Assembly: GCF_024345995.1 (NCBI RefSeq)
Contig: NZ_JAGQCE010000001.1
Coordinates: 248,001-312,000 of the forward strand
Origin: Synechococcus sp. Cruz-7E5
Lineage (GTDB): Bacteria; Cyanobacteriota; Cyanobacteriia; PCC-6307; Cyanobiaceae
Direction of reading: 5' to 3'
DNA length: 64,000 nucleotides
Part shown: positions 3,495 to 25,459 of the stretch, piece after piece
Position numbering within the stretch: position 1 is the stretch's first letter
Layout of the letters: every line of letters starts with the position of its first letter
Made by a program: the position numbers and the translations under genes
The notes under the pieces: generated by a model
Database searches by the model: none
Told to the model about the DNA's origin: nothing
What the model saw: only the letters and a program-made list of their open reading frames with translations

Positions 3495-3516
3495 CCCTGC
3501 TCTTCCCTGAATAACC

Positions 3517-3700: not shown

Positions 3701-3732
3701 AGTGCGTCAGCAGAGCAGTGCGTCAGCAGAGA
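3701..3732. repeat. Two-copy 16-base tandem repeat
   Basis: The unit AGTGCGTCAGCAGAGC occurs at 3701-3716 and again, with one change at the last base, at 3717-3732. It lies in the 264-base gap between the Phd/PIN and AbrB/PIN modules (3495-3758), where I see no gene. Confidence 0.8.
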
Positions 3733-3758
3733 AACAGATCAGGTCAGCGCTGCTCTGA

Positions 3759-4348: not shown

Positions 4349-4358
4349 CGCAAGGTCG

Positions 4359-8022: not shown

Positions 8023-8097
8023 GCTTGGTACCTTTTAGAAGAAGTGGGTTCAGGAGTTAGCTGGAGAATCAAAAAAATGCTGAAGAGACTAATAGGT

Positions 8098-9381
8098 TTA
8101 CAGTAATGCCATATCCTTGGTCGCCTCTTTATTTGCAAGAATCTTGCTGTAGATCGCGTTGTGCGAACTTGAGCAGGTTGTATGAGAAGATGGTGGGGGT
8201 ATGGCATCAAGAAGTTCCTTGTGAGCCAATTGATTACCTACTGAAGAGGCTAGTAGTGTGGCAAGTGAGGTTGGGTTGGAAACCGCAAAGGTATTGCCAC
8301 CTAAACCTGTAACTTTTTCGGCTGTTCCGCCAATATTGCTTGCAAGCACTGGCCGCCGATAAAATAGAGCTTCTTGGATAACTACTGGTGAGTTCTCCCA
8401 CCAGATTGATGGCATCACCAGCCAGTCATTCTCAAGCATCAATGCCTCGATGTCCTGCTGCCGGTAGCTGCCCCGCAGGATAACTCGATCTTTCACTGCT
8501 TGATGAAGTGTGTAAAACTCATCTTGGAAGTCCTGCTGCTGGTGCTCCAGATTGGCGCCGTTAATGTTCACGATAAAATTCCTGACTCCCTGCTCCTGCA
8601 GCAGCGCCACCGCTTGTAGTAGAACCAACACGCCTTTGTAGCGGTTCAGCTGGCCGAAATAGCCAAAACGGTTCAGCTCCGCTGAATAGCTGGCAGAATA
8701 CCCCTCGCGCTTGCTCTCGTCAAAGCTGGCCGGCAGCCCGTTTTCGATCATCACAAAATTTGGATGGTCGATCCCGCAGGCCCTGTATCGATCAATCAGA
8801 AACTGGCTCGGGCTCACCAATGCATCACAGCTCTCCAGAATCGTACGAATGTAGTGACTACGAAGAAACATCTCTTGGGGCGTATGCTCTGGGAAGCACA
8901 GCGAGCAGGCCAACGGTGTGGCTTTGTGGCATAGCTTCAGCTTGCCGGTGGTCACCATCTGTCCGTTGTGCATGCACAGGGCCAGATACTCGTGCAGAGT
9001 AACCACAATCTTGCTCTTCGGACTGATTGTCTGTAACAATGGAATCACATCGATTCCGAAGTGACTGTAGTGCTGCAGATGGATGATGTCTGGCTTGATG
9101 TGATCCAGCAGCCGTTGCAGACTGCGCTTCATCTCTCCGATCGCCACATTCTGAAAGCGGAACCATTCGCAGCTGGTGCCGATCAGGTACTCCCGGTCGG
9201 AGCCCTCCACATTCCGCAGTTCCCCATGGGCCAGCACCCCCTGGCTGGTGTGCATGGCCGCCAGAATCCAGCACTCCGTATCCGGCTGATCCTGCATGGC
9301 CCGGAACAGGGAAAAAGCAGCATTCTCGGCTCCACCCACCGAAAACTGCTCGTGCGCATGAATCAGATACAGAACTCGCAT
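8098..9381 (-). CDS. GT4-family glycosyltransferase
   Basis: A 427-residue GT-B fold glycosyltransferase. The N-terminal domain begins RVLYLIHAHEQFSVGGAENA, the usual GT4 glycine loop. The C-terminal donor domain shows YFGQLNRYKGVLVLLQAVAL and SIWWENSPVVIQEALFYRRP with RPVLASNIGGTAEKV, the E-x7-E region that binds the nucleotide sugar. A cysteine pair (LACSLCFP) and HEYLALC in the acceptor domain resemble a GT4 subset of surface-glycan clusters. The last 35 residues are Ser/His/Cys-rich and unusual, and a late frameshift is possible. The start is only 2 bases after the stop of the large GT2 gene, so they are co-transcribed. Confidence 0.85.
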   Translation of the reverse strand: MRVLYLIHAHEQFSVGGAENAAFSLFRAMQDQPDTECWILAAMHTSQGVLAHGELRNVEGSDREYLIGTSCEWFRFQNVAIGEMKRSLQRLLDHIKPDIIHLQHYSHFGIDVIPLLQTISPKSKIVVTLHEYLALCMHNGQMVTTGKLKLCHKATPLACSLCFPEHTPQEMFLRSHYIRTILESCDALVSPSQFLIDRYRACGIDHPNFVMIENGLPASFDESKREGYSASYSAELNRFGYFGQLNRYKGVLVLLQAVALLQEQGVRNFIVNINGANLEHQQQDFQDEFYTLHQAVKDRVILRGSYRQQDIEALMLENDWLVMPSIWWENSPVVIQEALFYRRPVLASNIGGTAEKVTGLGGNTFAVSNPTSLATLLASSVGNQLAHKELLDAIPPPSSHTTCSSSHNAIYSKILANKEATKDMALL

Positions 9382-9383
9382 GG

Positions 9384-11645
9384 CTATCCCATCGCCTCCA
9401 GCCGTGATCGTTTTAGCAGCTCGATTGCGCCGCCCCAGCGTTCCTGCTGGGTCAACGCATTCAGCGCCACCACCTTGGTCTTGAGGAGATCGTTGCTCTC
9501 CCCGTGGCCCACGCTCTGCCTCTCCAGGTGGTAAAAGCTGGCCTCCAGATCCACCAGCACCGGCAGCCCCATCGCCCGGATCCGCAGGCAGAGATCACTG
9601 TCTTCGAAATCACCGATCACGAAGTCAGTGCTCAGCCCGCCCAGCTCCCGGAACAGCTCGGTGCTCAGCATCAGGCAGGCCGCAGTGGCGGCTTCCACTT
9701 CCTGCAGGCAGGCTCGCTCGTCCTCGGCAAAACCAAGATTCAACCCTTTCATCGGATGCTCGTTGAGCCACACATCACTGAGACAGCCGGGCAGATCATC
9801 CTGCCGCACAAACTCCATGCCGGCATGTTGAATGCCACCATTATCAAACAACAACCGTGCCCCCAGCGCTCCCACCATGCCGCGGTGCTGTTGGAAGGCA
9901 CGCAGCAGGATCGCGAAACTTTCCTGCCGCTCGGGCAGCACATCGGAGTTCAGCAGCAGGAGCGTGTCGCCTCGCGCCTGCCGGCTGCCCACATTGTTGG
10001 CACCGGCATAGCCCAGGTTGGTGGCATTGATCACCGTTTCGAACGGCATCCGATAGAGCGTGTGGCAGCGTCTGGCCAGGGCTTCGAAGGTCTGCTTCAG
10101 GCGTGGATCATCGAGCACATAAATCAGTTGATAGCGCAGGGCTTCATCGCCTCCCCGGCGCAGCCAGGCATTGAACCAGTTCAGCTGGTATTCCATGAAA
10201 TCGATCCGCCCGTAGAGGGGCACCACGATGCTCAGCTCCGGTTGCTCCGGCACTGGTCCGTAGCGCTTCAGCGTTGGAGGGCATTCCATCTTCCGGCGCA
10301 GCTGATCACTCCAGGCAGCCCGCAGCTTCACGGCCGCTTCAGGAGCCAGCAGCTCGCAGCGATCACTGAACAGCGTGTCCACCGAGTGCTTCATCTCTGC
10401 GGTGGTGAGCTCACTGCTCACCGGCTGACGCCGCACCAGAAACTGTTCTCCGTTGCGGAGCACCACGAACAGCTCCATGCCTTCACCATGTGAAGACACC
10501 ATCCGTTCGTCTTCTCCCCGCACCAGGGTCAGCCTGAAGCCGGCTTCGTAGCCTGCGGAACATCCGCAACGTGCCATCTGATCCGCCAGGTCGGCCCGGG
10601 ATTGGTACTTGGCGGTCCCCAGATTCAGCCGCTGAACGCGTGTGCCCTGGATCAGGCAGAGATGCTCGAGCTGATTCCCGGGATCGATGATCCAGCCCTG
10701 CAGGTTCTGTAGGGTTCCGCAGCTGCTGAGCTGAATGGCGTCGAGAGCCATGATGAAGCCGCTGCTCTCGCTCCGATCCGCGATATGGCTGAGTTGGTTG
10801 CGGGGATTCTCCTCCAACCACTGCAGGGTCGACAGCACCCGGCCCAGCAGATCAACTTCCGAGCTGATCGTGCTCTGCAAAGGGGATTGCCTCAACCCCT
10901 CCAGCGCCTCCAGCGCTTTCTCCCCTTCCCCACAAGCCAGATGCACCCAGGCCAATGAAAGCTTGGCGTGGAAGGCCACCTGCTCACGGGCCTCCTGCAG
11001 CGGGCTGGGGCCGTCCTCCTCGGCCACGGCGCCCGCATCGGCCAGGGCTTGCAGGGATTGACGGGTGTGCTCAATCTGTCCGAGCGAGGCTGCGCTGCGC
11101 AGACCATAGAGACTCGCCCAGGGGGCCAGTTCTGCTCCCTCCGGATGGTTGCTCACCTGCTCCAGCAGGGCGATGGCCACTCGATGCCGACTCTTCTCGT
11201 GGCACCAGTGGCCGAATTGGTAGAGCGAGAGGGGTTCGAGCTCGGCGCACCACTCCCCCACCAAGCTGTGATCAAGGCTGCGGACAGCGGCGTCATAGTT
11301 CTGCTCACGCACCTGCTCAAGCCAGTGGTTGCGGTGCTCCCGCAGGGCCGTGCCAAACCGCTCACTGCCGTGGCTGGCAAAGGAACGGCGCAGCGGCCGT
11401 GGCCGATCAAGATCGATCGTGGCAACTGCTCTTGGAGCAGGTCGTGCAGGAGGGGGCTTCAACCCATTGGTTGAGACCTGCGTCCTGGTTGGCGGCTGCT
11501 GGAGCGGTGGGGAGAGCGGCCCATTCGCCTCATTGGTGTTGGCCAGCAGCGCAGCCAGTGCCGACCAGATCGCGGTGTTGCGCGGATCTTGCAGCAGTTG
11601 ATGTTGCAAGTGGGCGAGTTCAGAGCGGGTGTTCACCACTGGCAT
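9384..11645 (-). CDS. Large GT2-family glycosyltransferase with helical N-terminus
   Basis: A 753-residue protein. The N-terminal 270 residues are helical and TPR-like with a Pro-rich opening. Residues about 290-420 form an unassigned domain. From about 470 a GT2 catalytic domain follows: SIVVPLYGR, NATNLGYAGANNVGSRQARG, LLLLNSDVLP (the D-x-D equivalent) and FVIGDFEDSDLCLRIRAMG near the end. GT2 enzymes invert at the sugar and act at the cytoplasmic face of the membrane. Its ATG shares one base with the stop of the upstream methyltransferase gene (TGATG), and the GT4 gene follows after 2 bases, so the three form a tight unit. Confidence 0.85.
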   Translation of the reverse strand: MPVVNTRSELAHLQHQLLQDPRNTAIWSALAALLANTNEANGPLSPPLQQPPTRTQVSTNGLKPPPARPAPRAVATIDLDRPRPLRRSFASHGSERFGTALREHRNHWLEQVREQNYDAAVRSLDHSLVGEWCAELEPLSLYQFGHWCHEKSRHRVAIALLEQVSNHPEGAELAPWASLYGLRSAASLGQIEHTRQSLQALADAGAVAEEDGPSPLQEAREQVAFHAKLSLAWVHLACGEGEKALEALEGLRQSPLQSTISSEVDLLGRVLSTLQWLEENPRNQLSHIADRSESSGFIMALDAIQLSSCGTLQNLQGWIIDPGNQLEHLCLIQGTRVQRLNLGTAKYQSRADLADQMARCGCSAGYEAGFRLTLVRGEDERMVSSHGEGMELFVVLRNGEQFLVRRQPVSSELTTAEMKHSVDTLFSDRCELLAPEAAVKLRAAWSDQLRRKMECPPTLKRYGPVPEQPELSIVVPLYGRIDFMEYQLNWFNAWLRRGGDEALRYQLIYVLDDPRLKQTFEALARRCHTLYRMPFETVINATNLGYAGANNVGSRQARGDTLLLLNSDVLPERQESFAILLRAFQQHRGMVGALGARLLFDNGGIQHAGMEFVRQDDLPGCLSDVWLNEHPMKGLNLGFAEDERACLQEVEAATAACLMLSTELFRELGGLSTDFVIGDFEDSDLCLRIRAMGLPVLVDLEASFYHLERQSVGHGESNDLLKTKVVALNALTQQERWGGAIELLKRSRLEAMG

Positions 11646-12535
11646 CAGCGTTGCGCCTCCAGCACCAGCACTCCGGGGATGTCATGCCCCAGCACCCCAT
11701 GCTTCCAGCTGACGATGTGATGCACGGCTGAGGAGCGGAACCCTGCCTCGCTGAGCTGATCGAGCAGATCCCAGCCAGGAATCTGGAACACCACGGCTCC
11801 TTCCTCTGGTCGAAGGGGATCTCCATGGAAATCAGGCTCACCCAGAAACTGGATCCTGCCGCTGGCGGCCTCTCTCCTTGCCTTGGTAATGGTGGAAAAC
11901 TGGCCCAGCGCCAGCGGGCAGGTGGCCACCAGCCGCCCCCCCGGGCGGAGCACCCGGGCGATTTCAGCCAGAGCCTTGGGCAAGTTCTCAATGTGCTCGA
12001 ACACCTCGCTGGTGATCACAAGATCGAAACTCCGATCAGCGAAATTCAAAGCCTCAAGATTCTGATTAACAATGTCTCCCCAGACAGCCTCACCATCGGG
12101 CACTCCATCAAGAAATTCACTGAGGGTGATACCGGGAACCAGCTGCTTGAGGCGCAGGGCAAATCCAGAGATGGCTTCAGCCAGATAAATCGCTTGCTCC
12201 CTGAGTGTCTCAAGACCACCGAGGCAGTCCTCCAGCACAAGTAGAATCGCCCGATTGCGTGAAAGGCATCCCCTAGCATGCAATGACTCCCGATAGTTCG
12301 GAGCCAAAATACTGAGTTCCTCTGGTGTAATATGCTCTGCCGTGAGCGGCTCGATGATTCCCAGTTTTTGGATCACTTCGATGCAGGAAGGTACGTAGCC
12401 TGCCTGGCTCAGCAACTCGGGGATCAGGGGTTGAAATTGCTCGAATGCGGTGAATCGCTCATGCTGATGGTGCAATCTCAGGCAATGATCACTCGGGATA
12501 AAGCATGACGTGGACGCAGGGTTTGAGACAGCCAC
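11645..12535 (-). CDS. Class I SAM-dependent methyltransferase
   Basis: A 296-residue protein with the methyltransferase pattern DIVNQNLEALNFADRSFDLV, TSEVFEHIENLPKALAEIAR and VLRPGGRLVATCPL. The glycine-rich SAM loop is not the usual D-x-G-x-G-x-G; the equivalent region reads IYLAEAISGFALRLKQLVPG, as in a branch of methyltransferases found in polysaccharide clusters. It probably methylates a sugar or an assembled glycan. It heads the three-gene unit with the large GT2 and the GT4 gene. The 282 bases upstream (12536-12817) separate it from the FkbM gene; I see no gene there. Confidence 0.75.
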   Translation of the reverse strand: MAVSNPASTSCFIPSDHCLRLHHQHERFTAFEQFQPLIPELLSQAGYVPSCIEVIQKLGIIEPLTAEHITPEELSILAPNYRESLHARGCLSRNRAILLVLEDCLGGLETLREQAIYLAEAISGFALRLKQLVPGITLSEFLDGVPDGEAVWGDIVNQNLEALNFADRSFDLVITSEVFEHIENLPKALAEIARVLRPGGRLVATCPLALGQFSTITKARREAASGRIQFLGEPDFHGDPLRPEEGAVVFQIPGWDLLDQLSEAGFRSSAVHHIVSWKHGVLGHDIPGVLVLEAQR

Positions 12536-12817
12536 TGAAGCAACTTACAGCGATTGAGCAGAGGATGGGGGAACTGTACTCAGTATGGGGAGTCCAAAAT
12601 CTGGAGAGACGCCCCATGTGCAGTGGCACTGCTGAATGCTTTCACCCGTGATCCTAAGGCGACGTAGTGCTTGTTACAGCAAGCATGTTCGCTGCTTGGA
12701 TGCGGACCTGCCCCCCGTGTGTTAAGCAACACGAGGGATACTCGTCCCGTCCATCTGGTCGCACCCTTTCGCCTCCCGGCGCTGATCCCGATCCAGGCCG
12801 CTGAGGCCTGGCGCCGA

Positions 12818-13546
12818 TCAGGCCTTGAGGCAGGCCTCCGCCGCGGAACGGTGAATCCACACCACATCAGCGCGCGCCAGGAACGGCAGGTCATCAGAGG
12901 CCTGGTTCGTGAAGCGGAACAGCTCATAGCCATAGCCGCGCAGCAAGGCATCCACCTGGACCCAGGGCTGCAGGAACGAAGCCGTGGGAGCTGTGCTCGA
13001 TACGGAGCACTCCACCTGCACGAAGTCAACAGCACCGATGGCGAGCATGGGCTCGAATCCCCGCAGCACCTCCAGATCATGACCTTCGCAGTCGATCTTG
13101 AGGAAGTGGATCCTGTTGATGCCGTGACGTTGGCAGAAGCCGGCCCCGGTGCACAGAGGGACAGATTCGGTTGGTGGCCCGCCTATGGCCGGCTTGGTCT
13201 CAGCTGAGGGGGAAGCCATCACCAGATGGTTCACCGTCACATCCGGCTCTGCGGTGATCATGCCTTGGCCATCAGTGGAGCTGAGGGCCAGCCGGCTGAT
13301 CAGCGTGCGTTCCTCACAAAAAATCGGGAATTTACTTAAATTGGTGTAGCACTCGGCATGGATAGAGGCCACTGGCTCGAACAAATAATAGTGAGCCTGC
13401 GGGTAGTGCTGCAGAAAGAGATAGGTGAACCAGCCGTGGTTGGCACCCACATCGAACACCACATCCATTGCTGCCATCGGCAGGCGCTCCTGGATGTAGG
13501 CGGCAATGCTGTCTTCCAGGTCAGAGCGGTGGAGAGCAACGGACAT
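12818..13546 (-). CDS. FkbM-family methyltransferase
   Basis: A 242-residue FkbM-type SAM methyltransferase. The SAM motif is DVVFDVGANHGWFTYLFLQH (about residues 28-47), followed by YLFEPVASIHAECYTNL. The later strand INRIHFLKIDCEGHDLEVLRGF is the family's diagnostic motif. FkbM-like enzymes O-methylate sugars or other hydroxyls, and in cyanobacterial glycan loci they commonly cap surface polysaccharides. It stands alone between gaps of 282 and 118 bases but in the same direction as its neighbours. Confidence 0.85.
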   Translation of the reverse strand: MSVALHRSDLEDSIAAYIQERLPMAAMDVVFDVGANHGWFTYLFLQHYPQAHYYLFEPVASIHAECYTNLSKFPIFCEERTLISRLALSSTDGQGMITAEPDVTVNHLVMASPSAETKPAIGGPPTESVPLCTGAGFCQRHGINRIHFLKIDCEGHDLEVLRGFEPMLAIGAVDFVQVECSVSSTAPTASFLQPWVQVDALLRGYGYELFRFTNQASDDLPFLARADVVWIHRSAAEACLKA

Positions 13547-13664
13547 CAGGCCACCATGGCAGGTGCAGATTCATCAAGCCAAGTTTATTCTAACAGTGAC
13601 AGCAAAATAGCCAGCAGAAACAGCTGCTTTCAGCACTCCGCAAACGTGGAGTTCCGCGCCGTCG

Positions 13665-14840
13665 TCAGCGCTGAGCCATCAGTTCGAGCACCTGATCCAC
13701 CGTCACGGTCATGTCGGGATAGTTGGGGCCCTGATCGGTCACTTGCTCATCCCCCACCACGATGCTGTGATCAATGCCCAACCGGGAGCTGATCAGCGCA
13801 AAGGCCGGCGTGCCATTGCCTGCAGCCATCAGTTCCATGGCCCTGATCGGGGCCCGCTGCCGAAACATCAGCAGGGTGAAGGCCGCTCCATGGGGGCCGA
13901 TCACCTGCTCGTGGCGGCTGATCAGCTGGGCCTGCTCGCGTACGGACAGTGTGCCGATCGACTCCACCACCTGCAGCCTCGGAGAGTGGCGTTGCAGCCG
14001 CTCGAGCAGCTCGGCCTCGTTCAGCACCCGCCTCCGGCTGCGACGGGCCAGGTACAGCACACTTCCCTCAGCTGCCTCCAGATCCCCTGGCAGGGCCAGC
14101 AGATCGCGCAGGAACGCCATCGCCCAGGCCGAACAGCGCTGCAAGGGATGCCGGTGCAGAGCCCGCCTCACATAGAACAGCCGCTTCACCCTCAGGCACT
14201 GGCCCGGCTCCAACCAGTGGAAGCGGTGTCCATGCAGTTCCTGCGCCATGGCCAGCAGCTCCTGCTGAAACCGCTGCCCGGGCTGACCCACCAGCACAGC
14301 CATGGCACGGCGGCAGTCGGCCGCCAGAGCCAGCAGGCTGAGCTCATCGCAGATGAAATGGCAGAAATTGCTGGGGTCGATGTCGCTGGTGGCCACGAAC
14401 AGCTCGTCGAGCTCTCCCACCACTTGCTCCGCAGCAGGGTCGGCGAACGGGGCCCCCAGCAGAGGGGCGTAGGCGCTGCTTCCATCGGCCACCAGGCCGC
14501 CGTCCGTTCGGATCAGGTGAAACCCCATCCAGTTCTCGACGGTGGCGTTCTCCAGCAGGGCCACCTCCACCCGTGGTGGATCAAGCAGCACGGTTTCGGT
14601 GGCCAGCGGAAAATGCAGCCGCTCGGGCGTGGGGCAGCGCAGCCGGTAGCTCAGATCGATCGGGGTGCTGCGCACAAGCACGGTGGGCCCTGCCGCGGCA
14701 GCAGGCGCTGGTGCCAGACCCATCGCTTGGACGGCTTCGGCCGAGGCCTTGTCGGCTGCATCACCCCAGATGACCCCATCAAGCCCGTAGTGGTGATGGC
14801 AAGCCAGCAAACCTCCCAGCAAGTGCGCTCGACGATTCAC
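13665..14840 (-). CDS. GT61-family (DUF563) glycosyltransferase, high-GC copy
   Basis: A 391-residue DUF563/GT61 protein. The family core is DPSNFCHFICDELSLLALAA (about residue 155), LYLARRSRRRVLNEAELLER and RHEQVIGPHGAAFTLLMFRQ near residue 310, the conserved G-x-H-G-A step. Its overall plan matches the GT61 gene at 5405-6514 but the sequence is remote and the composition is GC-rich, like the host backbone. The two are therefore not a recent duplication. It lies 59 bases downstream of the paralogous pair of unknown genes. Donor and acceptor are unknown. Confidence 0.75.
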   Translation of the reverse strand: MNRRAHLLGGLLACHHHYGLDGVIWGDAADKASAEAVQAMGLAPAPAAAAGPTVLVRSTPIDLSYRLRCPTPERLHFPLATETVLLDPPRVEVALLENATVENWMGFHLIRTDGGLVADGSSAYAPLLGAPFADPAAEQVVGELDELFVATSDIDPSNFCHFICDELSLLALAADCRRAMAVLVGQPGQRFQQELLAMAQELHGHRFHWLEPGQCLRVKRLFYVRRALHRHPLQRCSAWAMAFLRDLLALPGDLEAAEGSVLYLARRSRRRVLNEAELLERLQRHSPRLQVVESIGTLSVREQAQLISRHEQVIGPHGAAFTLLMFRQRAPIRAMELMAAGNGTPAFALISSRLGIDHSIVVGDEQVTDQGPNYPDMTVTVDQVLELMAQR

Positions 14841-14899: not shown

Positions 14900-16618
14900 T
14901 CAGCCCAGCAGCTCCACCAGATCGTGTCTCGCCGCCAGTGCCAGGCCTCGGATACCGTGCCGCAGTTGCAGCTCAAGCAGCAGGGGCAACCGCAGGGGGC
15001 CGCAGCTGGCCACCACCCAGTCAATCGGCTGCTGCCTGTGCAGGCCAAGGATCTGATCCACCAGAGCGGCCAACGCCTCTTCGTAGCCAAGGCCAACGGG
15101 CGGCTCGAGCAGGTGCAGTGGCTCCCGTTTCAATCGCCGGCGCAGGCCATCCGCACCGTTCGTCACCACCACCACATGGCGCTCGGCCAGCAAGGCACTC
15201 AGCTGCGTCCGGGTTGGAGGCTCCACCAGCTCCGGCCTGCGGCCCGACCCCTCGCTGAGGGCCTGCAGCAGGGGAAGCACGAACCAGTCGGCGCTGTCGT
15301 CGGAGCTCCACAGCACCGCCTCGCCCCACAGGGCAGCCATCATCAAAGGTCCGAGCACCCCATCCGCCCAGCGGCGGCACACCTCCGCCGCAGGCAGGTC
15401 CCCAGTGCCAGCCCCGGGAAAGCCCGCCTCAAACAGGCGACCCAGACTTTCAACAGGGTCAGTCGGATCGAACCACCAGGCCGGGTTCCGGGGAAACGCC
15501 TCGCCCCCCTGGCGCAGGGTGCTCAGCCGGAGCAGCACCGGATCGATCACCGGCTCCTGCCTCACCAGAGCTCTCACGGCCGCCAGCTCCAGCGGTTCCA
15601 GCTCCACCAGCAACTTGAACGATGTCGGCTCGAGTGGGGGCAAGCTGCTGTGCTCCTGCCAGGGACTGCCCACTCCCGCATGGCGATGCCACACCGCGGC
15701 GGCATAGCGAAACCGAGCGAAGCACTCCGGCTCGAGCCCGGAGCCGGCGATCCAGAGCACGGACAGAGAACGGAGCATTCCCTCAAGAGCCGGCTCCAAC
15801 AGGGGCTTCTGGGCAGTAGGCGCCCCGGCCAGAGAGTCCCGAACCCCGCTGAAAAAAGCGCTCACCACCCGGTCGAGGCCAGCCTCATCCCCGTCTGCAA
15901 GCCAGGGGTGGAGGTTCAGCTCCAGGCAGCCATCGCGCCAGGCCACGGCCTCCTCCCCCGGCAGCGCCACCAGGGCGAGCTGCCGCAGTAGCTGGCGAGC
16001 CCCGGCGGGGGGGCCATCCCGCCATAGCCGTGAGGCCGTGGCGGCCAGCTCGGAATTGGACGGCCGGCTGTGGTTCTCGGACCTGGCCACTGGGGCCGGA
16101 ACCACAGCGCGAAGCGCCTCAACCTCAGCCAGCACCCAGGCGGGGCATGGATCCAGCAACACAGCCAGACGCTCGTGCAGCTCCAGGGAGGACGCCGCGG
16201 CTCGAGCCAGCAGATCCTGCGCCCAACCCGGCTCAGTCAGGAACGACTTCCAGAACGCAGCTCCGTCCTGCACCACCTGCTGCTCCAGCACCGGCAGCCA
16301 GTCCGGCGGGCTGACCGGCAGGTGCTGGTGATCAACAAGGATGCGACTCAGTTCCAGGCAGAGTTCAGCCCGCCGGGGCTGCTCCAGCGGCTGGGGGCTG
16401 TTCGTGTTCACCACCCCGTGGATCGCGATGGTCAGATCGTTCACGAGTTCCCCGTAGAAGCGGTGCAACTCGCCAGCGCGGTCGGAATCCCCGGGAGCCA
16501 GGCTGCCCAGCAGATCTCTCGCTCCCTTCTGCAACTCCAGCGCCGCACTCCAGTCACGCCGGCCGATGGCCTGCCGACTCCCCGTGAGGCTCTCGAGAAA
16601 GGTGGCTTCCGCCGCCAC
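14900..16618 (-). CDS. Unknown protein, paralogue of the next gene; GT-D-like C-terminus
   Basis: A 572-residue protein with no family I can name. It is a clear paralogue of the gene at 16622-18679. Shared landmarks include PPDWLPVLEQQVVQDGAAFW, LDPCPAWV, the W-W-F-x-P-x-D-P-V-E-x-L segment, R-R-W-A-D-G-V near residue 414 and the final VVASCGPLRLPLLLELQLRH near 536. The last two resemble the R-x-G-D-G-E and aG-x-x-x-x-P-L steps of GT-D fold sugar transferases, but the catalytic Glu position is Val here, so the link is weak. It lacks the acidic Pro-rich linker of its partner. No signal peptide or membrane segment is evident. It lies 3 bases after its paralogue, so they are co-transcribed. Confidence 0.6.
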   Translation of the reverse strand: MAAEATFLESLTGSRQAIGRRDWSAALELQKGARDLLGSLAPGDSDRAGELHRFYGELVNDLTIAIHGVVNTNSPQPLEQPRRAELCLELSRILVDHQHLPVSPPDWLPVLEQQVVQDGAAFWKSFLTEPGWAQDLLARAAASSLELHERLAVLLDPCPAWVLAEVEALRAVVPAPVARSENHSRPSNSELAATASRLWRDGPPAGARQLLRQLALVALPGEEAVAWRDGCLELNLHPWLADGDEAGLDRVVSAFFSGVRDSLAGAPTAQKPLLEPALEGMLRSLSVLWIAGSGLEPECFARFRYAAAVWHRHAGVGSPWQEHSSLPPLEPTSFKLLVELEPLELAAVRALVRQEPVIDPVLLRLSTLRQGGEAFPRNPAWWFDPTDPVESLGRLFEAGFPGAGTGDLPAAEVCRRWADGVLGPLMMAALWGEAVLWSSDDSADWFVLPLLQALSEGSGRRPELVEPPTRTQLSALLAERHVVVVTNGADGLRRRLKREPLHLLEPPVGLGYEEALAALVDQILGLHRQQPIDWVVASCGPLRLPLLLELQLRHGIRGLALAARHDLVELLG

Positions 16619-16621
16619 GGC

Positions 16622-18679
16622 TCAGCCCCCCAGCGCCATCCACTGATCAGCCTGTCGGTTCTCGGCCCTCCACCGGGGTACCTCCGGCAGATCCACCCCG
16701 AACAGGGCCGTCGTGGCAGCACCCATCGCCACGCCACGCACCCCGCAACGGGCCCGCAGCTCATCGAGCAGAGGTAAGCGGTACGCGCCACAATCGGCCA
16801 GCAACAACCCAAAGGGTTTGCGCTGGAACTCCCCCACCACCTGTTTGATCAGGCCGTCGAGACTGGCGCTGAAACCCCGATCCGGCCGCTGGGGATAGTG
16901 GCTCTCGGGCGCCGGCACGGCCCGCAGGCCATAGGGCGCAATCGTGCGGTCGAGAAACAACCGGAAGGCCCTGCCGCTGCGGTGCTGATTCAGGATCGCC
17001 TCGCTGTGGGGACCCACATAGAGCACTTCCTGCCCGGCCATCACGCGGTAGATCTCGAGGAGGTCAGGTCGTCCCGTGAGCTCCGGCACTCCGCCGGTTT
17101 CCGAGCAGAGGGCCTGTGCCACCGGCAGGAAGAAACTGGCGGTGGTCCCATCGCTGCTCCACAGCGCCGCACCGGCCAGGCAGCGGAATACCCCATCCGC
17201 CCAACGCACCAGACAGGCCATGTCCGCTCCAGCAGCGGCATAGAAGCCACAGTCGGTGTGCAATCGCTTCAGATTCTCCACCGGGTCCGCCGGACGGAAC
17301 CACCAGTCGGGCGAACGCTGGTTCCAGAAGGCCACGTTGAGATGCTCCCTCCGCAGCCGCGCCAGGGCAGGTTCCAGCTGCTCACGCTCATACAGCACAC
17401 CTTGCAGGGCTGCAAGCTCAACCGCATCCAGTTGCACCAGCAGATCGTGGCTGTCGAAGCGCGGGACCGGCAGCCCACTGGGGAGAAGCCGTGCCCCCAG
17501 TGAACCCGGTCCGGTGAGCCGGCTCCAGATCGGCAGCGCCTGGTTGATGCGGAAGAACAGCTCCTGGGGCAACTGCTCCCCCACGCGCCAGAGATGCCCC
17601 ATCGATTCATAGAGGCTGACGATCGAATCGCGGACCCCAAGCTGGGCGGCACGCCCTGATGTCTCCCGCACGCGCACCGGCGCCAGAAAGGCCGCCATCA
17701 CATCCTCCAGACGCTGCGGGTCTGCCGTGCCCAGAAATGGCCAGAGATTGAGCTCCAGGCGGCTCGAATCCCGACTCACCGGCCCGGCTTCCGGCACGCA
17801 CACAAGCCCCAGCTGCAGCGACTGATCCGAACCCGCATGGCAATGGAGCCAGTCGTCCACTTCGGCGCTGATCTGCTCCGCCTCCCATGGCGGTGGCTCA
17901 GCCGCTGGCGGTGCCGGTAACGGCTGGTACCCCTCCACCCGCAGCGACTCGAAGCCGTTGAGGGTTTCCACGGGCCGAAACGCTTCGAAAACCTGATCGA
18001 TTTCAGGGTCCGGATCCGGTTCCGGATCGGGTTCCGGATCGGCCACGGGGGTCACCCCAAGCTCCTGGCAGGCCAGGCTCACCCAATCCGGGCAGGGATC
18101 CAGTCGCGCCGCCAGACGGGCGAACAGCTCTCCGGCTCGGGCAGGCGCCTCGGCCTCCTGGCCGATGCGTTCCCGCCAGAACATCGCTCCGTCCTGAAGG
18201 AAGTAGGTGTGCAGGAGGTGCAACCAGTCGGGGGAGCGGATCGGCAGCTTCAGCTGCCGATCAAGAATCCGTGCCATCCACCAGCACAACCGGGCGCGCT
18301 GGGGCTGGGGGGGAGGCGTGGCTGTGGTCTGGCTGTTGACGACTGAATGGAGGGCAGCCGCCAGGCCCTGAACCACCTCCCCATAGGGTGCCCAGAAAGC
18401 AACGGCCTGGCCCGATGGCAGCCTGCCCAGCCCAGCCATCTGCCGCTCCAGCTCCTCGCAGCGTTCCAGGGCGAGTGTCCAGTCTTCCTCGGCCTGGGCA
18501 TCAAGAACGCTGGTGTGGCAGGCTCCGAGCGAGGCAATCAGCTGATGAAACTGCTCCTCTGAGGTCGGAGGGAGGCTCTGCACCACGTTGAGGCTCCCTC
18601 GTGCGTCGTCGATGTCCGGGAAACCGTAATCAACCCATTCTGGGGGAACCACCCCGATCAGGGAGGTGAAACACGTCAC
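16622..18679 (-). CDS. Unknown protein, longer paralogue; GT-D-like C-terminus
   Basis: A 685-residue protein, the larger of the tandem pair. Relative to its partner it has an extra linker around residues 205-235 made of Asp-Pro and Glu-Pro repeats, encoded by a hexanucleotide-like tandem repeat. The C-terminal 200 residues carry LVRWADGVFRCLAG (about 489), VLYVGPHSEAIL and LADCGAYRLPLLDELRARCG (about 627) followed by MGAATTALFGV. That last pattern is reminiscent of GT-D fold transferases (GAYGLPL ... GGATQ-x-LFG). I infer a sugar-handling role from this and from the context, not from catalytic residues. The annotated start lies 26 bases from the divergent glycosyltransferase gene. GTG codons near 18594 would leave a more usual promoter gap and agree better with the paralogue's N-terminus. 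Confidence 0.6.
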   Translation of the reverse strand: MTCFTSLIGVVPPEWVDYGFPDIDDARGSLNVVQSLPPTSEEQFHQLIASLGACHTSVLDAQAEEDWTLALERCEELERQMAGLGRLPSGQAVAFWAPYGEVVQGLAAALHSVVNSQTTATPPPQPQRARLCWWMARILDRQLKLPIRSPDWLHLLHTYFLQDGAMFWRERIGQEAEAPARAGELFARLAARLDPCPDWVSLACQELGVTPVADPEPDPEPDPDPEIDQVFEAFRPVETLNGFESLRVEGYQPLPAPPAAEPPPWEAEQISAEVDDWLHCHAGSDQSLQLGLVCVPEAGPVSRDSSRLELNLWPFLGTADPQRLEDVMAAFLAPVRVRETSGRAAQLGVRDSIVSLYESMGHLWRVGEQLPQELFFRINQALPIWSRLTGPGSLGARLLPSGLPVPRFDSHDLLVQLDAVELAALQGVLYEREQLEPALARLRREHLNVAFWNQRSPDWWFRPADPVENLKRLHTDCGFYAAAGADMACLVRWADGVFRCLAGAALWSSDGTTASFFLPVAQALCSETGGVPELTGRPDLLEIYRVMAGQEVLYVGPHSEAILNQHRSGRAFRLFLDRTIAPYGLRAVPAPESHYPQRPDRGFSASLDGLIKQVVGEFQRKPFGLLLADCGAYRLPLLDELRARCGVRGVAMGAATTALFGVDLPEVPRWRAENRQADQWMALGG

Positions 18680-18705
18680 CGCGCCAAAACCGGGTTGCCT
18701 CTACG

Positions 18706-21624
18706 TTGATGCCGCTCTTCCCCCTCGAGCGAGACACCGCCCCCGTGCAGACCGTTCTGCCCCCAGCGCTGCAGGCTCGTGCCCGTGCCTCGTCCGTGGG
18801 CACCTTCGAGGGTCTGACCAGCAACGGAAGCCTCAGCGGCTGGGCCTGTTCCCTGCCCCTGTCACCGGATGGCAACCCCCTGGCCGTTCAGCTGCAGATG
18901 GAGGATTTGCTCAATCCAGGGCAGATCACGCTTCTGGGTGAGGTGTTGGCCCAGCTTCCCCGCCCGGATCTGGAGGAGCAAGGGCTGGGTCACGCCTGTG
19001 GGTTCCTGCTGCAGGGCCCGCTCGTTGTCACTCTTCCCCCACGGACCACGGGCAGCGTGCTCCGGGCCTACGCCCGCACCGCCCATGGGTTGGAGGAACT
19101 CTCCGGCAGCCCGCTGCGCCTCGATGCCGACCGTTATCAACAGCTCGAGAGCCTGTGCCATGCAGCCCAGCAACTGCCGGCAGGGTTCAGGCCCCTCGAA
19201 GGTCCCTTCCTCAGTGGCTGGGCACCCCCCGAGAGCGAACTCCTGCTGAGGATCGATGGGGAAGCCCTGCCGCCGGTGCACTCCACCGGCAAAGGCCATT
19301 TCATGCTGCCCCTGCCACCGGCCTGTTGTGATGGCCGCGCCCATCACATCGCCCTGCACCACAGCGACGGCACGCTGCTGGCCGAAACCATCGAGCTCAC
19401 CCCATTCCAGCTCACCCCCTGGCCCTCCCTGCTGGAACATGGGCGGGCTCCCTTTCCCAAGGGTCTCGATCCCCTGGCCCAGGAGCACCACCGCAGCCTC
19501 ACCACCTGGCTGCACTGGGCCGATGCCGAAGGCACCCCATTGCCCTCTGATCTGCCCCTGCTCCAGCGAATTCTCAGTGCGGCGATCAAACCACCAGCCA
19601 ATGCCGCCCCCCACCAGGAAGCGGGGCCGGATGGCAGTCCCATCACCCGGCAACCGATTCAGCTGGTCCTGAGCTCCGAGCCCCGCGTCTCGATCGTGGT
19701 GCCGGTTCACAATCAGTACGCCGTCACCCGCCGCTGTCTGGCGGCCGTTGCCTACGCCCCCACCCGGGTGCCGTTCGAGCTGATCGTGGTCGACGACGGC
19801 TCCAGCGATGGAACCTCTGAAGCCCTGGCCCAGGAAGCCCCGGGCGTTCAGGTCATTCGCCACGACTACGCCCGTGGATTCAACCAGGCCTGCCACAGCG
19901 GTGTGGCCGCGGCTCGGGGTGAGTTCGTGGTGCTGCTCAACAACGACACCGAACCCTGCTGCCGCTGGCTGGAAGAACTGCTCGATCCCTTTGAGCGCTG
20001 GAGCGATACCGGCATGACCGGCGCCCAGCTGATCTATCCCGATGGCAGGCTGCAGGAGGCCGGTGGAATCGTCTGGGGTAACGGCGAACCGTGGAACTAC
20101 GGCCGGGGGCGTAATCCCCACCATCCCGGGGTTTCCTACACCCGTCAGGTCGACTACGTGAGCGGCGCCGCCCTGGCGATCCGGCGCGAGATCTGGAGCC
20201 GCCTCGGTGGATTCAGCCCTGAGTTCTCACCCGCTTACTACGAAGACACCGATCTGGCCTTCAAGGTGCGTGAGGCCGGCTATGTGGTCCGCTATGCGCC
20301 ACTCGCCAAGGTGATCCACCACGAGGGCCTCAGCTGCGGCACCGACACCAACCCTGAAACCAGTGAAGGGTTGAAGCGCTTCCAGACCCTGCATGCGCCC
20401 CAATTCCAGCGCAAGTGGGAGCATGCCTTCACCGGCTCAAGGGAGCCGAGCTTTGAAGCCGCCGAGATCATCAAGGACCGCGGTGTCGTCGGGCGTGCCC
20501 TGTTCCTCGATCACGGCACCCCAAGGCCGGATCGCGATGCCGGCAGCCATGCGGCGCTGATGGAAATGGAACTGGTGCAGTCGCTCGGCTACAAAATCAC
20601 CTTTCTGCCAGCCAACCTGGCCTGGCTCGGCAGCTACAGCGAAGACCTGCAACGCCGTGGCATCGAAATGATTCACGCGCCCTTTGTGCTCTCGCTGGAG
20701 AGTTTCCTGATTGAGAGGGGACACGAGTTTGATCTTGTCTATCTCACTCGCTACACAACAGTGCGCGACAGCCTGGCACTCTTGCGTGACCACGCCCGCA
20801 AAGCCAAACTCATCTTCTGCAACGCCGATCTCCACTACCTGCGCGAACTGCGCCAGCTCCAGATGTCCGGCTTGGTCGGCGAGCAAGCCCAGCAGGCCCT
20901 GGCGTCCGTGCGCGTCACCCGCCAACAGGAACTCGACGCCATGGCGGCCGTGGATCTCACCCTCACCTACAGCGAAGTGGAGCAGGCGGTGATTGCCGCC
21001 GAGAGCCTCGGCCAGGCCACCACGGCCCTCTGCCCATGGGTGGTGAACACCCTGGACGAACCCGCTCCTCTGCACACGCGATCCGGAATCGCCTTCCTGG
21101 GCAGCTACCAGCACCCCCCCAACCGCGACGCAGTCGAATCCTTTCTTGCAGAGATCTGGCCAACCCTGCTGGAGCGTCATGGTGATCTGGAGCTCCATCT
21201 CTACGGCAGTGGCCTCAGTGGTGAGCTGCAAGACGCCTGGTGCCAGCTGCCTGGTGTGCGGGTCCATGGCTGGGTGGTCAACGCCTCGGTGGTGTATCAG
21301 AACCATCGGGTCTTCATTGCTCCACTGCGAGCCGGTGCGGGGATCAAGGGCAAGGTGATCGCTGCCCTGGCCCACGGCATCCCTCAGGTGCTCAGCCCCG
21401 TGGCGGCAGAGGCCACGGGACTGCGCCATGGCTCCGAAGTGTTCATCGCCCACGATCGGGATGCCTGGTGCGATGCGATCACCAATCTGATCAGCGACGA
21501 TCAGCTCTGGCAGCGCTGCAGTGCCACGGCCCTCAGCTATGCCCGCAGCAAATACTCTCGCGAGCGGGGCCGTGGGCTGATGGCCACCGCCCTGGAGCGG
21601 CTTGCACTGCCGTTGACGCGATGA
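18706..21624 (+). CDS. Two-domain glycosyltransferase (GT2 plus GT4-like)
   Basis: A 972-residue protein with three parts. Residues 1-310 are an unassigned N-terminal region. Residues about 325-560 are a GT2 domain: RVSIVVPVHNQYAVTRRCL, ELIVVDDGSSDGT, EFVVLLNNDTEP and YYEDTDLAFKVREAGY. Residues about 590-960 are a GT-B domain: RALFLDHGTPRPDRDAGSH, GIAFLGSYQHPPNRDAVESF and APLRAGAGIKGKVIAALAHG. The two catalytic units could add successive sugars to one acceptor. The stop overlaps the start of the parvulin-like gene by 4 bases (ATGA), tying a glycosyltransferase to a type I export operon. Such coupling suggests that the exported protein is the acceptor, which is inference. Confidence 0.82.
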   Translation: MMPLFPLERDTAPVQTVLPPALQARARASSVGTFEGLTSNGSLSGWACSLPLSPDGNPLAVQLQMEDLLNPGQITLLGEVLAQLPRPDLEEQGLGHACGFLLQGPLVVTLPPRTTGSVLRAYARTAHGLEELSGSPLRLDADRYQQLESLCHAAQQLPAGFRPLEGPFLSGWAPPESELLLRIDGEALPPVHSTGKGHFMLPLPPACCDGRAHHIALHHSDGTLLAETIELTPFQLTPWPSLLEHGRAPFPKGLDPLAQEHHRSLTTWLHWADAEGTPLPSDLPLLQRILSAAIKPPANAAPHQEAGPDGSPITRQPIQLVLSSEPRVSIVVPVHNQYAVTRRCLAAVAYAPTRVPFELIVVDDGSSDGTSEALAQEAPGVQVIRHDYARGFNQACHSGVAAARGEFVVLLNNDTEPCCRWLEELLDPFERWSDTGMTGAQLIYPDGRLQEAGGIVWGNGEPWNYGRGRNPHHPGVSYTRQVDYVSGAALAIRREIWSRLGGFSPEFSPAYYEDTDLAFKVREAGYVVRYAPLAKVIHHEGLSCGTDTNPETSEGLKRFQTLHAPQFQRKWEHAFTGSREPSFEAAEIIKDRGVVGRALFLDHGTPRPDRDAGSHAALMEMELVQSLGYKITFLPANLAWLGSYSEDLQRRGIEMIHAPFVLSLESFLIERGHEFDLVYLTRYTTVRDSLALLRDHARKAKLIFCNADLHYLRELRQLQMSGLVGEQAQQALASVRVTRQQELDAMAAVDLTLTYSEVEQAVIAAESLGQATTALCPWVVNTLDEPAPLHTRSGIAFLGSYQHPPNRDAVESFLAEIWPTLLERHGDLELHLYGSGLSGELQDAWCQLPGVRVHGWVVNASVVYQNHRVFIAPLRAGAGIKGKVIAALAHGIPQVLSPVAAEATGLRHGSEVFIAHDRDAWCDAITNLISDDQLWQRCSATALSYARSKYSRERGRGLMATALERLALPLTR

Positions 21625-22418
21625 CCACCACACTCTCAGGTGTCACCCAACCAGCGGTGATCGCCATTGCCTCCGGTCGTCCGCTGCTTTCAGTGGAAGA
21701 AACCAACCGGATCCTCCGCCAGCAGGGTGTAGCCCTGGCCCTCGCCCAGGGTGTCGTGCTTGATCTCGTCGCCCGCAGCGTGATGATGCAACCCGATGAG
21801 GAGAACGCCCTGATGCGCGCCTATCTCGAAGGCGAAGGCATCAGCAGTGACGAAGCCCTCGAGGGCTGGCTGCGCCGCAAAGGCTGGTCCCTCGACGACC
21901 TTCGTTACTTCGCCACCAAGGCCGAACGGGTGAGGCGGTACAGCCACAACAGTTATGGCCCCGAGGCCGAGATTCGCTTTCTCGATCGCAAGCTCGATCT
22001 CGATCAGGTCACTTACTCGCTCATGCGTGTCTCCGATGGCGATCTCGCTGAGGAGCTTTACTGCCAGCTCAAGGAAGAAGGTGCTGATTTCGCCACATTG
22101 GTGGCCGCCCATGCCGAGGGAAGTGAAAGGGTGACCCGCGGCTTGATCGGCCCGGTGGCCATCAGTGCTGGCCATCCTGCCGTGGCAGAAAAACTACGGG
22201 TCGGAAGCCCAGGCCAGCTCTGGCCACCATTCAAAGTGGCCGAATTGTGGCTGTTGGTGCGGCTCGAACAACGCTTCCCTGCTCAACTCGATCAGGACAT
22301 GCGCTCCGAGATGGTCAATGAGCTTTTCCAGATCTGGTTCAAGGAACAGGTGAACCTGTTGATGGCTGGTGAGCCGCTGATGCCCCTGATCCCTGATCTC
22401 AACGCCACCGATCGATGA
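21621..22418 (+). CDS. Parvulin-like (PpiC) peptidyl-prolyl isomerase of an export operon
   Basis: A 265-residue protein; I take the ATG at 21621 because it overlaps the preceding stop as ATGA and starts the recognisable sequence TTTLSGVTQPAVIAIASGRP. The layout is that of PpiC/SurA-like proteins: a helical N-terminal half (about 25-110), then a parvulin-like domain about 125-215 with LMRVSDGDLAEELYCQLKEE, ADFATLVAAHAEG and TRGLIGPV, and a closing helix. There is no signal peptide, so it should act in the cytoplasm. Parvulin-like proteins without signal sequences are common beside cyanobacterial C39-type ABC exporters, where they may keep the cargo export-competent. Key active-site residues are not all obvious, so chaperone activity is as likely as isomerase activity. 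Confidence 0.72.
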   Translation: MTTTLSGVTQPAVIAIASGRPLLSVEETNRILRQQGVALALAQGVVLDLVARSVMMQPDEENALMRAYLEGEGISSDEALEGWLRRKGWSLDDLRYFATKAERVRRYSHNSYGPEAEIRFLDRKLDLDQVTYSLMRVSDGDLAEELYCQLKEEGADFATLVAAHAEGSERVTRGLIGPVAISAGHPAVAEKLRVGSPGQLWPPFKVAELWLLVRLEQRFPAQLDQDMRSEMVNELFQIWFKEQVNLLMAGEPLMPLIPDLNATDR

Positions 22419-25400
22419 CCGCCTCCACCTCGAGTATTCCCGGCCACCGCGACAGTGGTCTGATCGGCCGTTTCAAACCCTTTGATCGCCTTCCCACCGA
22501 GGTGGCCGCCGCCGTGGAGCCCTTGCTTGAGGCAAGGAGGTATCGCCTCGGGCAAACGCTCCTGCGCCCGGATGTGATGCCCGAGGGAGTGCACTTGCTG
22601 CGCAGCGGCAGCCTGCGCAACCTGGCCACCAATCCACTCAACGGAGAGCTCCACACGATCGCTCGCCTCGAACCGGGTGACAGCGCCGGATGGTGTTCGT
22701 TGCTGCGCAACGACCCCTGCGAGCATCTGCGCGCCTCCTCGGAAGTGGAGACCCTCTTCCTGCCGGCCAGCGTGTTCAAGGAGCTGATCGCCAGCCACGA
22801 ATCCCTGCGTGCTGGCCTCCAGAACAAGCTTCCCGCCGCTGAATTGCATCGCCTGCTCACCGTCCTCGCGGCCCAGGATCCAACCTGGCTGGCCCTTCTG
22901 CGCAGCTGGCCCACCATCCTCAGCCAGGCCACGGTGCGCAGCCTGGCTCCCGGCAGCGCAGGCCCCCTCGACCTCCCCGACCACAGACGCTGGTTCGTCA
23001 GCAGTGGTGCCCCGCTGGGTCAGGCCTGGAGCCCACAGGCCCCGGCTCCGGCTCCAGCAACCGGAACCGCCTGGTTGCGGCTGATCGGATTGCCCACGCA
23101 GGCCAGCCAGCCAGCGTTCACCACAACCAGCACCGACCACCACCACACCGGCGGCTCGCCAAGCCCCGGGCCAGCAGCGGAGTCCTCCGCCCAGTCGCTC
23201 CAGGTGGGCAGCCAGCTGGTGACAAGCGAACCCGCTGCTGTAACCGCCCCCAGCTATGCCCCATCTCCAGACCCTGCCCAGCCCCGGGCTCAGGGCCGCA
23301 GCGAAGAATTAAGGCTGAGCCGTGCCACCGGCCCCCGCGATGGCCCGATCGCCATCTGCCAGGCCATCGCCCATTACTTCGGCGTGCCGGTGAATCGCGA
23401 CGCCCTGGTGGATCTGGTGGAGGGAATCCTGCAACGTCAGGGGCAGCTCAATCTGATCAACCTCGGCCAGGTTCTCGATTTCCTGGGCCTGCGCGTCGTG
23501 CTCACCGAACTGCCCGCAGACCGTCTGCAGCGGGCCCCGGTGCCCGCCGTGCTGTTCTCCCAGGGGCACTTCGCCATCCTCGAAGGTGTCGACGACGACG
23601 GCCGCCTGCGCCTGCTGGAGCCCGAACTCGGCCCCTTGCTGATCCCGCCCCAGCAGCTGGCATCCGGCCCCGGCGGCCTGGTGGAGCTGTTGCTGCTGCA
23701 GCGCAAAGCCGATGCCAAGGAAGAGAACTTCAGCTGGAGCTGGTTCCTGCCCTTCCTGCGGGAGCACAGGCGCCAGCTGGTGGAAGTGCTGGCGCTCTCA
23801 TTCGTGATCAATCTGCTCGCCCTGGCCCAGCCCCTGGGCCTGCAGGTACTGATCGATCAGGTGTTGCGGCAGCGCAGCTTGAATGCGCTGCTCACGATCT
23901 GCTTCGTGCTGCTGCTGGCTGCCCTGGTGGGATCGATTCTCAAGGTGTTGCGCAGCTACATCTTCACCGACACCGCCAACAGGGTGGATCAGGACACCAA
24001 GACCACCATCCTCGATCAGCTGGTGCGCCTGCCCCAGGGCTTCTTTGATGCCCGGCCGGTGGGGCAGGTGATGTTCTACTTCAACCAGCTCGACAAGATC
24101 CGCGACTTTCTGCTCGGCAGCAGCCTCACCACGGTGGTGGATCTGTTGTTCAGTTTTCTCTACCTGTTCATTCTCTTCGCGATCAGCATCCCGCTCACCA
24201 TCACCACCCTGGCCACCCTGCCCTTGATGCTGGCCCTCACCCTGATCAGCAATCCCCTGGTGCGCAAGCAGATCAATCGCAGCAACGGTGCCTCGGTGAA
24301 AACCTATTCCTACCTCAACGAGTCGATCGGCGGCATCCAGACGATCAAATCCCAGAATGCCGAACTCAAAACCCGCTGGGAGTTCCAGAACCGCTATTCC
24401 CGGTACATCGGCGAAGATTTCAAACTCAAGATCACCAGTGAATCAATCAACAACCTCGCCGGCTTCATCAACGAACTGAATACCCTAGTTGTCATCGGTG
24501 TTGGCATCTTCCTGGTGATGCAGAACGAGCTCACCCTCGGTGGTTTCATCGCCTTTCGCATCCTCAGCGGCTACATCACCCGCCCCCTGGTGGGCCTCAC
24601 TCAAACCTGGATCAAGCTGCAGAACACCACCGCCTCCCTCAAGATGGTGGCCGATGTGGTCGATCGCAACACCGAGCAGACGCCTGCGGAGGCGCTCAAC
24701 ATCCCCATGCCCCCCCTGGTGGGCAAGGTGGAATTCCTTGAAGTCAGCTTCCGCTTTGCCGATGATGGCCCGTTGATTCTTCAGGAGGTGAACCTGGAGA
24801 TTCCCGCCGGCTCCTTCGTCGGCATGGTGGGCGGCTCCGGCAGCGGCAAAAGCACCCTGCTCAAACAGCTTCCCCGCTTCTACCGTCCGCTGTCGGGCAA
24901 AGTGCTGATCGATGATCTCGACATCAACAAAGTGGAGCTCTATTCGCTCCGCCGCCAGATTGGTGTGGTTCCCCAGGACAGCGTTCTCTTCGATGGCACC
25001 GTTCGCGAGAACCTGCTGCTGGTCAAACCCGATGCCACCGCCGACGAGATGATCCGGGCTGCTCGCATCGCCTGCGCTCACGACTTCATCATGGATCTTC
25101 CCAAGGGTTACAACTCCGACGTGGGCGAGCGCGGTGCCGGACTTTCCGGCGGCCAGCGCCAGCGCCTGGCCCTGGCCCGGGCGGTGCTGCAGAACCCGCG
25201 CATGCTCATCCTCGATGAGGCCACCAGCGCCCTCGATGCGCGCACCGAACGCCAGGTGTGCATCAACCTGTTCGAGGCCTTCCGCGGCCGCACGGTCTTC
25301 TTCATCACCCACCGGCTCTCCACGATTCAGCCGGCCGACTGCATCGTGCTGATGGATCGGGGCGCCGTGATGGAGACCGGCACCCACCGCGAATTGATGA

Positions 25401-25459
25401 AACGCCAGGGCTGGTATTACGCCCTTCACCAGAGTCAGACCCAGGAAGGAGGATTGTGA
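22415..25459 (+). CDS. Type I secretion ABC exporter with cNMP-like and Cys-less C39-like domains
   Basis: A 1014-residue exporter. Residues about 18-140 resemble a cyclic-nucleotide-binding domain (FKPFDRLP ... LLRSGSLRNLA ... GDSAGWCSLL). A Pro/Ser-rich linker follows to about 300. Residues about 303-440 are a C39 peptidase-like domain: RDGPIAICQAIAHYFGV aligns with the catalytic D-C-G step but has Gly where the nucleophilic Cys should be, while the His is kept in GHFAILEGVD. It should therefore bind cargo but not cut a leader, as in HlyB. The six-helix membrane domain spans about 445-740. The ATPase has Walker A GGSGSGKST (about 805), signature LSGGQ (about 910) and Walker B MLILDEATSALD (about 930). 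It overlaps both neighbouring genes. Confidence 0.9.
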   Translation: MTASTSSIPGHRDSGLIGRFKPFDRLPTEVAAAVEPLLEARRYRLGQTLLRPDVMPEGVHLLRSGSLRNLATNPLNGELHTIARLEPGDSAGWCSLLRNDPCEHLRASSEVETLFLPASVFKELIASHESLRAGLQNKLPAAELHRLLTVLAAQDPTWLALLRSWPTILSQATVRSLAPGSAGPLDLPDHRRWFVSSGAPLGQAWSPQAPAPAPATGTAWLRLIGLPTQASQPAFTTTSTDHHHTGGSPSPGPAAESSAQSLQVGSQLVTSEPAAVTAPSYAPSPDPAQPRAQGRSEELRLSRATGPRDGPIAICQAIAHYFGVPVNRDALVDLVEGILQRQGQLNLINLGQVLDFLGLRVVLTELPADRLQRAPVPAVLFSQGHFAILEGVDDDGRLRLLEPELGPLLIPPQQLASGPGGLVELLLLQRKADAKEENFSWSWFLPFLREHRRQLVEVLALSFVINLLALAQPLGLQVLIDQVLRQRSLNALLTICFVLLLAALVGSILKVLRSYIFTDTANRVDQDTKTTILDQLVRLPQGFFDARPVGQVMFYFNQLDKIRDFLLGSSLTTVVDLLFSFLYLFILFAISIPLTITTLATLPLMLALTLISNPLVRKQINRSNGASVKTYSYLNESIGGIQTIKSQNAELKTRWEFQNRYSRYIGEDFKLKITSESINNLAGFINELNTLVVIGVGIFLVMQNELTLGGFIAFRILSGYITRPLVGLTQTWIKLQNTTASLKMVADVVDRNTEQTPAEALNIPMPPLVGKVEFLEVSFRFADDGPLILQEVNLEIPAGSFVGMVGGSGSGKSTLLKQLPRFYRPLSGKVLIDDLDINKVELYSLRRQIGVVPQDSVLFDGTVRENLLLVKPDATADEMIRAARIACAHDFIMDLPKGYNSDVGERGAGLSGGQRQRLALARAVLQNPRMLILDEATSALDARTERQVCINLFEAFRGRTVFFITHRLSTIQPADCIVLMDRGAVMETGTHRELMKRQGWYYALHQSQTQEGGL

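Follow-up and report, generated by a model that had tools for sequence, protein, structure and literature searches.

A picocyanobacterial family of exporter-linked proteins joining a helical module to a divergent GT-D-like domain

Introduction

Glycosyltransferases of the GT-D type are represented by DUF1792, in which the Asp-x-Glu of the RxGDGE motif holds manganese (PMC6493773). Another relevant system is the GtfA-GtfB (Gtf1-Gtf2) pair of the streptococcal serine-rich repeat proteins, where one catalytically inactive partner binds the acceptor and the pair acts before export of the surface glycoprotein (PMC5207161; PMC12809243); GtfB is the inactive partner of GtfA (PMC12809243). Helical additions to glycosyltransferases have also been described, one such example being CgT, whose helical domain mediates oligomerisation (PMC5063993). 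In a Synechococcus, the surface RTX protein SwmA is apparently glycosylated (PMC3034196). Here, two neighbouring genes of Synechococcus sp. Cruz-7E5 are compared with these systems; "the window" refers to the whole stretch of 64,000 nucleotides that was analysed.

The Gene Pair and Its Family

The two genes lie on the minus strand, where P0002 (685 aa; 16622..18679), the canonical member of a family that combines a helical module with a GT-D-like domain, is followed by its paralogue P0001 (572 aa; 14900..16618). The P0002 stop codon TGA, the bases GCC and the P0001 start GTG follow one another directly, so that the genes are three bases apart, as originally predicted. BLASTP aligns the two proteins at 34% identity over 385 residues (E 5e-43), with a second match of 38% identity over the N-terminal 152 residues, which bears out the prediction of tandem paralogues with landmarks in common; judged by sequence, they are paralogues over nearly their full length. 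No third copy was found when the genome was searched with P0002. Both GTG starts are uncertain, and model confidence is very low for residues 1-35 of P0002, whose full-length AlphaFold2 model has a pLDDT of 86. The annotated starts of P0002 and of a divergent GT2-GT4 gene leave about 30 bases between them (window positions 18679-18709); because this is too tight for two ordinary promoters, the real P0002 start probably lies further inside the open reading frame.

Pfam and NCBIfam gave no informative match for P0001 or P0002 and no named family above cut-off for any of the 32 family members, and direct sequence searches of the PDB returned nothing useful. Among 400 genomes of the organism's own taxonomic family, a profile search identified 36 that encode a full member (E below about 1e-70), the named hosts including Synechococcus sp. 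WH 5701, which belongs to the same genus in the genome taxonomy scheme used, Synechococcus sp. J7-Johnson and Cyanobium sp. CZS48M. In a phylum sample of 292 genomes the full domain occurs in just two, both of that taxonomic family (the window's own genome and one other), and the matches in the remaining genomes are short GT-D-like proteins only. A scan of genome contigs with P0002 alone as query gave no match, and nothing was found in viral contigs and phage records. The family is picocyanobacterial and as yet unnamed.

In a phylogenetic tree, P0001 and the second copy of WH 5701 form one clade on a long branch with support of 100/100, by which a recent local duplication was rejected; the duplication predates the split from WH 5701. 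Second copies are missing from some genomes, and the pair is therefore not obligatory.

The two copies differ in what they have retained. In a set of 30 members of the P0002 type, P0002 included, 14 positions with polar or aromatic residues reach a conservation of at least 85%. All 14 are retained by P0002, three by P0001 and six by the WH 5701 counterpart of P0001. P0001 and this counterpart both lack the C-terminal end as well as the region surrounding H566 and R598-P599. That P0001 is a freshly broken pseudogene is unlikely, as the WH 5701 copy has the same central deletion and short C-terminus. Given that the duplication is ancient and that two species still carry the second copy, with its fold-core residues kept, P0001 is more likely to serve as a partner without catalytic activity than to be a gene in decay. 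The suggestion that the proteins could be catalytically dead partners fits the 572-residue copy well, and only possibly the 685-residue copy, which has the complete conserved set.

The GT-D-like Domain

The GT-D-like domain of P0002 (residues 409-680; 16640..17455, minus strand) was delimited by hhalign alignment to a short PF22882-positive family and by the Foldseek match to 4PHR described below. It is preceded by an alpha/beta region (residues 283-365; 17585..17833, minus strand), located between the linker and the domain, which folds together with the latter in the AlphaFold2 model of residues 283-685. As reference set, 20 short proteins from cyanobacteria, each about 300 aa long and L027 and L014 among them, were used; every one matches PF22882 of Pfam ("GT-D fold-like") at E <= 0.1. 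In the profile-profile comparison, the C-terminal domain of the P0001/P0002 family aligns with this short family over 233 columns (probability 97.6, E 2.9e-12), and the short-family profile matches P0002 at E 1e-9, with no match to reversed or shuffled controls. Neither P0001 nor P0002 reaches the PF22882 gathering cut-off, and two of the 32 family members show weak matches below it (best E 0.017).

With respect to PF08759 (DUF1792), Pfam found no match in P0001, P0002 or the rest of the genome, and hhalign of the family domain against 19 PF08759 proteins was not significant (E 0.53). The short PF22882-like family is in register with the PF08759 proteins at RxGDGE, but at an E-value of 0.18.

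The AlphaFold2 model of P0002 residues 283-685, built from an alignment of family members only, has a pLDDT of 93.6 and a pTM of 0.91. When it was compared with the PDB by Foldseek, 4PHR, a DUF1792 structure with manganese, had the top probability (0.89) among the matches listed, but the match is weak, ranking fourth by E-value (0.04) with a TMt of 0.36. Foldseek with the full-length model was swamped by helical bundles. Taken with the profile match to the PF22882 family, the weak but top-probability hit to 4PHR supports the predicted divergent GT-D-like C-terminal domain. The case for homology of the P0002 domain to PF22882-like proteins is strong, and that for a true GT-D is moderate; on its sequence, P0002 is GT-D-like by homology and outside GT-D by the defining motif.

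Among viral models, residues 283-685 have clear structural matches, the best of which are uncharacterised giant-virus proteins that are apparently GT-D-like: A0A2P1ELU1 of Moumouvirus australiensis (E 5e-9) and A0A3G5A8V2 of Hyperionvirus (E 7e-8). True PF08759 GT-D genes (L164-L183) occur in 31 of 244 genomes of the phylum, which all belong to one other family (f44), and some of the genes are fused to a GT2-like region. Rows of two or more short GT-D-like genes are also found outside the P0001/P0002 family (L014, L027, L064, L073, L075).

Motif Positions

In the original prediction, WADGV was taken as the counterpart of RxGDGE, with the acidic residue replaced by Val and with matching order and spacing up to a late G-x-x-x-L-P-L-L step. 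The alignment and the column conservation contradict the first part of this reading. When P0002 is aligned with the short GT-D-like family by hhalign, LLVQLDAVELAAL is paired with FMIGRFGGTEMTSL, GFYA with GFFP and RWADGV with RFCEQM, and WADGV (P0002 residues 493-497, 17189..17203; P0001 residues 417-421, 15356..15370, placed by BLASTP and the family alignment; both minus strand) therefore falls on the RFCEQM-type helix that comes after GFFP in GT-D-like proteins, and not on the catalytic slot. Only the Trp of this motif is conserved among the 32 homologues (W493 in 32, D495 in five, G496 in six and V497 in six). The RxGxxE slot sits about 75 residues before WADGV, at residues 416-421 of P0002 (Q-L-D-A-V-E; 17417..17434, minus strand), as placed by hhalign and column counts, and at residues 339-344 of P0001 (E-L-E-P-L-E; 15587..15604, minus strand) in the family alignment. 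The proposed spacing fails as well, W493 and G631 being 138 residues apart, whereas R60 and G256 of the short GT-D-like protein L027 are separated by 196; from the true slot of P0002 to G631 the distance is 215.

At the true slot, Arg is kept in five of the 32 members, and neither Gly nor the Asp of Asp-x-Glu remains. The final position, residue 421, is Glu in 24 members and Gln in eight, and nothing else; as Glu is present in both copies (E421 in P0002, E344 in P0001), the proposed loss of the acidic residue to Val rests on the wrong slot. The Asp is already absent from the short PF22882-like family, so its loss is older than the P0001/P0002 family. Because Asp-x-Glu holds the metal in DUF1792 and the Asp is lost here, a classical mechanism is unlikely. 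Also lost are the invariant His, Gln and GxRW of the short family, whereas GAYxLPL is retained. This late step is real in both copies, reading GAYRLPLL in P0002 and GPLRLPLL in P0001; GAYRLPL (residues 631-637; 16769..16789, minus strand), which hhalign and column counts equate with the GAYGLPL step, and GPLRLPL (residues 540-546; 14981..15001, minus strand), placed by BLASTP and the family alignment, share G631, L635 and P636, which are invariant in the 32 homologues.

Residue 418 varies together with residue 421: it is Ser in all eight Gln421 carriers (Ser-x-x-Gln), which are confined to a few lineages, and Asp or Glu in 20 of the 24 Glu421 carriers.

The Helical Module

The N-terminal module of P0002 (residues 41-207; 18059..18559, minus strand) is all-helical in the model and is recognised by a profile common to other proteins. 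The same profile matches P0001 (residues 4-171; 16106..16609, minus strand) at E 5e-50, a value obtained with an alignment that includes P0001 itself. In related genomes it also matches proteins with WcbI, GT61, FkbM and GT2 domains, as well as free-standing proteins about 260 aa long (E 1e-6 to 1e-28; no match to reversed or shuffled controls), and in the window it matches no other open reading frame. The module is located N-terminal to, or inside, the WcbI, GT61, FkbM and GT2 proteins (L082:9483-10886; L150:1639-3387 and 3275-4774; L148:5034-7094; L149:228-2633; L098:3538-6282). Because it is common to glycan-tailoring proteins, the module may act as a docking unit, by analogy with the helical domain of CgT.

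Gene Neighbourhood

P0002 is encoded head-to-head with a divergent GT2-GT4 fusion glycosyltransferase (18706..21624, plus strand; Pfam). This arrangement, with a GT2-GT4 orthologue of 57-74% identity (100% in the window itself), is found in 36 of the 36 genomes with a full member. In 35 of them the matches to the two genes end 73-345 bases apart; in the remaining one the distance is 2 kb. A further three genomes have the GT2-GT4 gene and no family match, but were rejected as counterexamples, as the contig ends on the divergent side in each.

On the plus strand the GT2-GT4 gene is followed by a PPIase-like open reading frame (21240..22418), with a weak Rotamase_2 match below the Pfam cut-off and a true start that is probably internal, a type-I-secretion ABC transporter with a cNMP-binding domain (22415..25459) and an HlyD-type membrane fusion protein (25459..27003), an order seen in most of the GT2-GT4 stretches read. 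RTX-type proteins are common cargo of type-I systems and are encoded elsewhere in the genome, with no cargo linked to the exporter at 22415..27003. On the minus strand, the pair is followed by genes for GT61, FkbM methyltransferase, methyltransferase 11, GT2, GT4, pyruvyl transferase and GT61 proteins (5405..14840; Pfam), which, to go by the spacing, may form one transcript with P0002 and P0001.

Proposed Function and Alternatives

On balance, the reading we favour, by a modest degree of confidence, is that P0002 is a retooled GT-D-like subunit, P0001 its non-catalytic partner, and a type-I-exported protein the substrate of their glycosylation. In P0002, the classical Arg and Asp-x-Glu site would have been replaced by another conserved polar set. 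P0002 would probably act in the cytoplasm together with the GT2-GT4 glycosyltransferase encoded divergently from it. The GT61, GT2, GT4 and methyltransferase proteins encoded on the strand of P0002 would join them in a complex held together by the helical module, and the complex would add sugars to a protein that the adjacent type-I system exports. The retooled domain may bind the growing glycan and perhaps also transfer to it, while P0001, which keeps the fold-core residues and has lost the polar set and the C-terminal end, would probably be a partner without catalytic activity, much as in GtfA/GtfB. Gene linkage is no proof that the exported protein is the acceptor, and the cluster could equally serve polysaccharide synthesis.

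The main competitor, a possible but doubtful one, is that both proteins are pseudo-enzymes, the GT-D-like domain acting only as an adaptor, structural or acceptor-binding, to bring in the real transferases (GT2-GT4, GT61). The sparse retention of the slot Arg, the missing Asp, the Gln in place of Glu in eight members and the loss of the short family's His, Gln and GxRW all agree with this, but 14 polar or aromatic positions held at 85% or more in a family of about 30% identity suggest a working site in the P0002 type. A further alternative is that P0002 is an ordinary, active, metal-dependent GT-D glycosyltransferase whose motif has merely shifted to D-x-x-E at residues 418-421, as the acidic residue 418 in most Glu421 carriers and the rank of 4PHR as most probable fold match would allow; the eight members with Ser-x-x-Gln, the mostly lost Arg and a genome devoid of Pfam GT-D matches make this improbable. 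Slightly less credible still is a role for P0001 and P0002 as chaperones or assembly factors of the type-I export machinery, with no sugar handling at all. Such a role is in line with the degenerate glycosyltransferase site and with the ABC, HlyD and PPIase genes as invariable neighbourhood, but the closest conserved gene encodes a glycosyltransferase, glycan-tailoring enzymes carry the same helical module as a fusion, and the pair's own strand runs on into glycosyltransferase and methyltransferase genes.

The favoured glycosylation reading can be taken further, to a rather unlikely general form in which the helical module is a shared docking unit that gathers GT-D-like, GT61, GT2, WcbI-like and FkbM proteins in one complex, the complex decorates proteins passed on to a type-I exporter, and the retooled GT-D-like subunit and its gutted paralogue make up the acceptor-binding core. 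The locus defines an unnamed exporter-linked family with a putatively retooled GT-D-like domain, supplies a natural pairing of a canonical member with a gutted one, and reveals a helical module common to several kinds of glycan-tailoring proteins. If the proposed function is true, it would offer a genetic handle on picocyanobacterial glycosylation of exported surface proteins, of which SwmA of Synechococcus is a reported example.

Comparison with Known Systems

Among the closest known systems, the short PF22882 proteins such as L027 and L014 share the homologous C-terminal domain, with its GFF/GFY step, LxGKxVLVIHP-like strand and GAYxLPL step, but have no helical module and retain the invariant Arg, Glu, His, Gln and GxRW that the P0001/P0002 family has lost or changed. 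GT-D itself (PF08759, DUF1792; PDB 4PHR) gives the predicted P0002 domain its fold match of highest probability, a weak one, and differs in that there is no significant profile match and that P0001 and P0002 do not have the Arg and Asp-x-Glu of RxGDGE. For the helical module, a likeness by analogy is offered by dGT1 CgT, where a helical domain on a glycosyltransferase brings about oligomerisation and is required for activity (PMC5063993), as opposed to P0002 in that the CgT domain consists of three helices on a GT-A domain. Finally, P0002 and P0001, with the asymmetry of their conserved positions, would make up a two-protein pair comparable to GtfA and inactive GtfB; this is only an analogy, GtfA being a GT4-type and not a GT-D-like protein and the exporter of that system being accessory Sec rather than type I.
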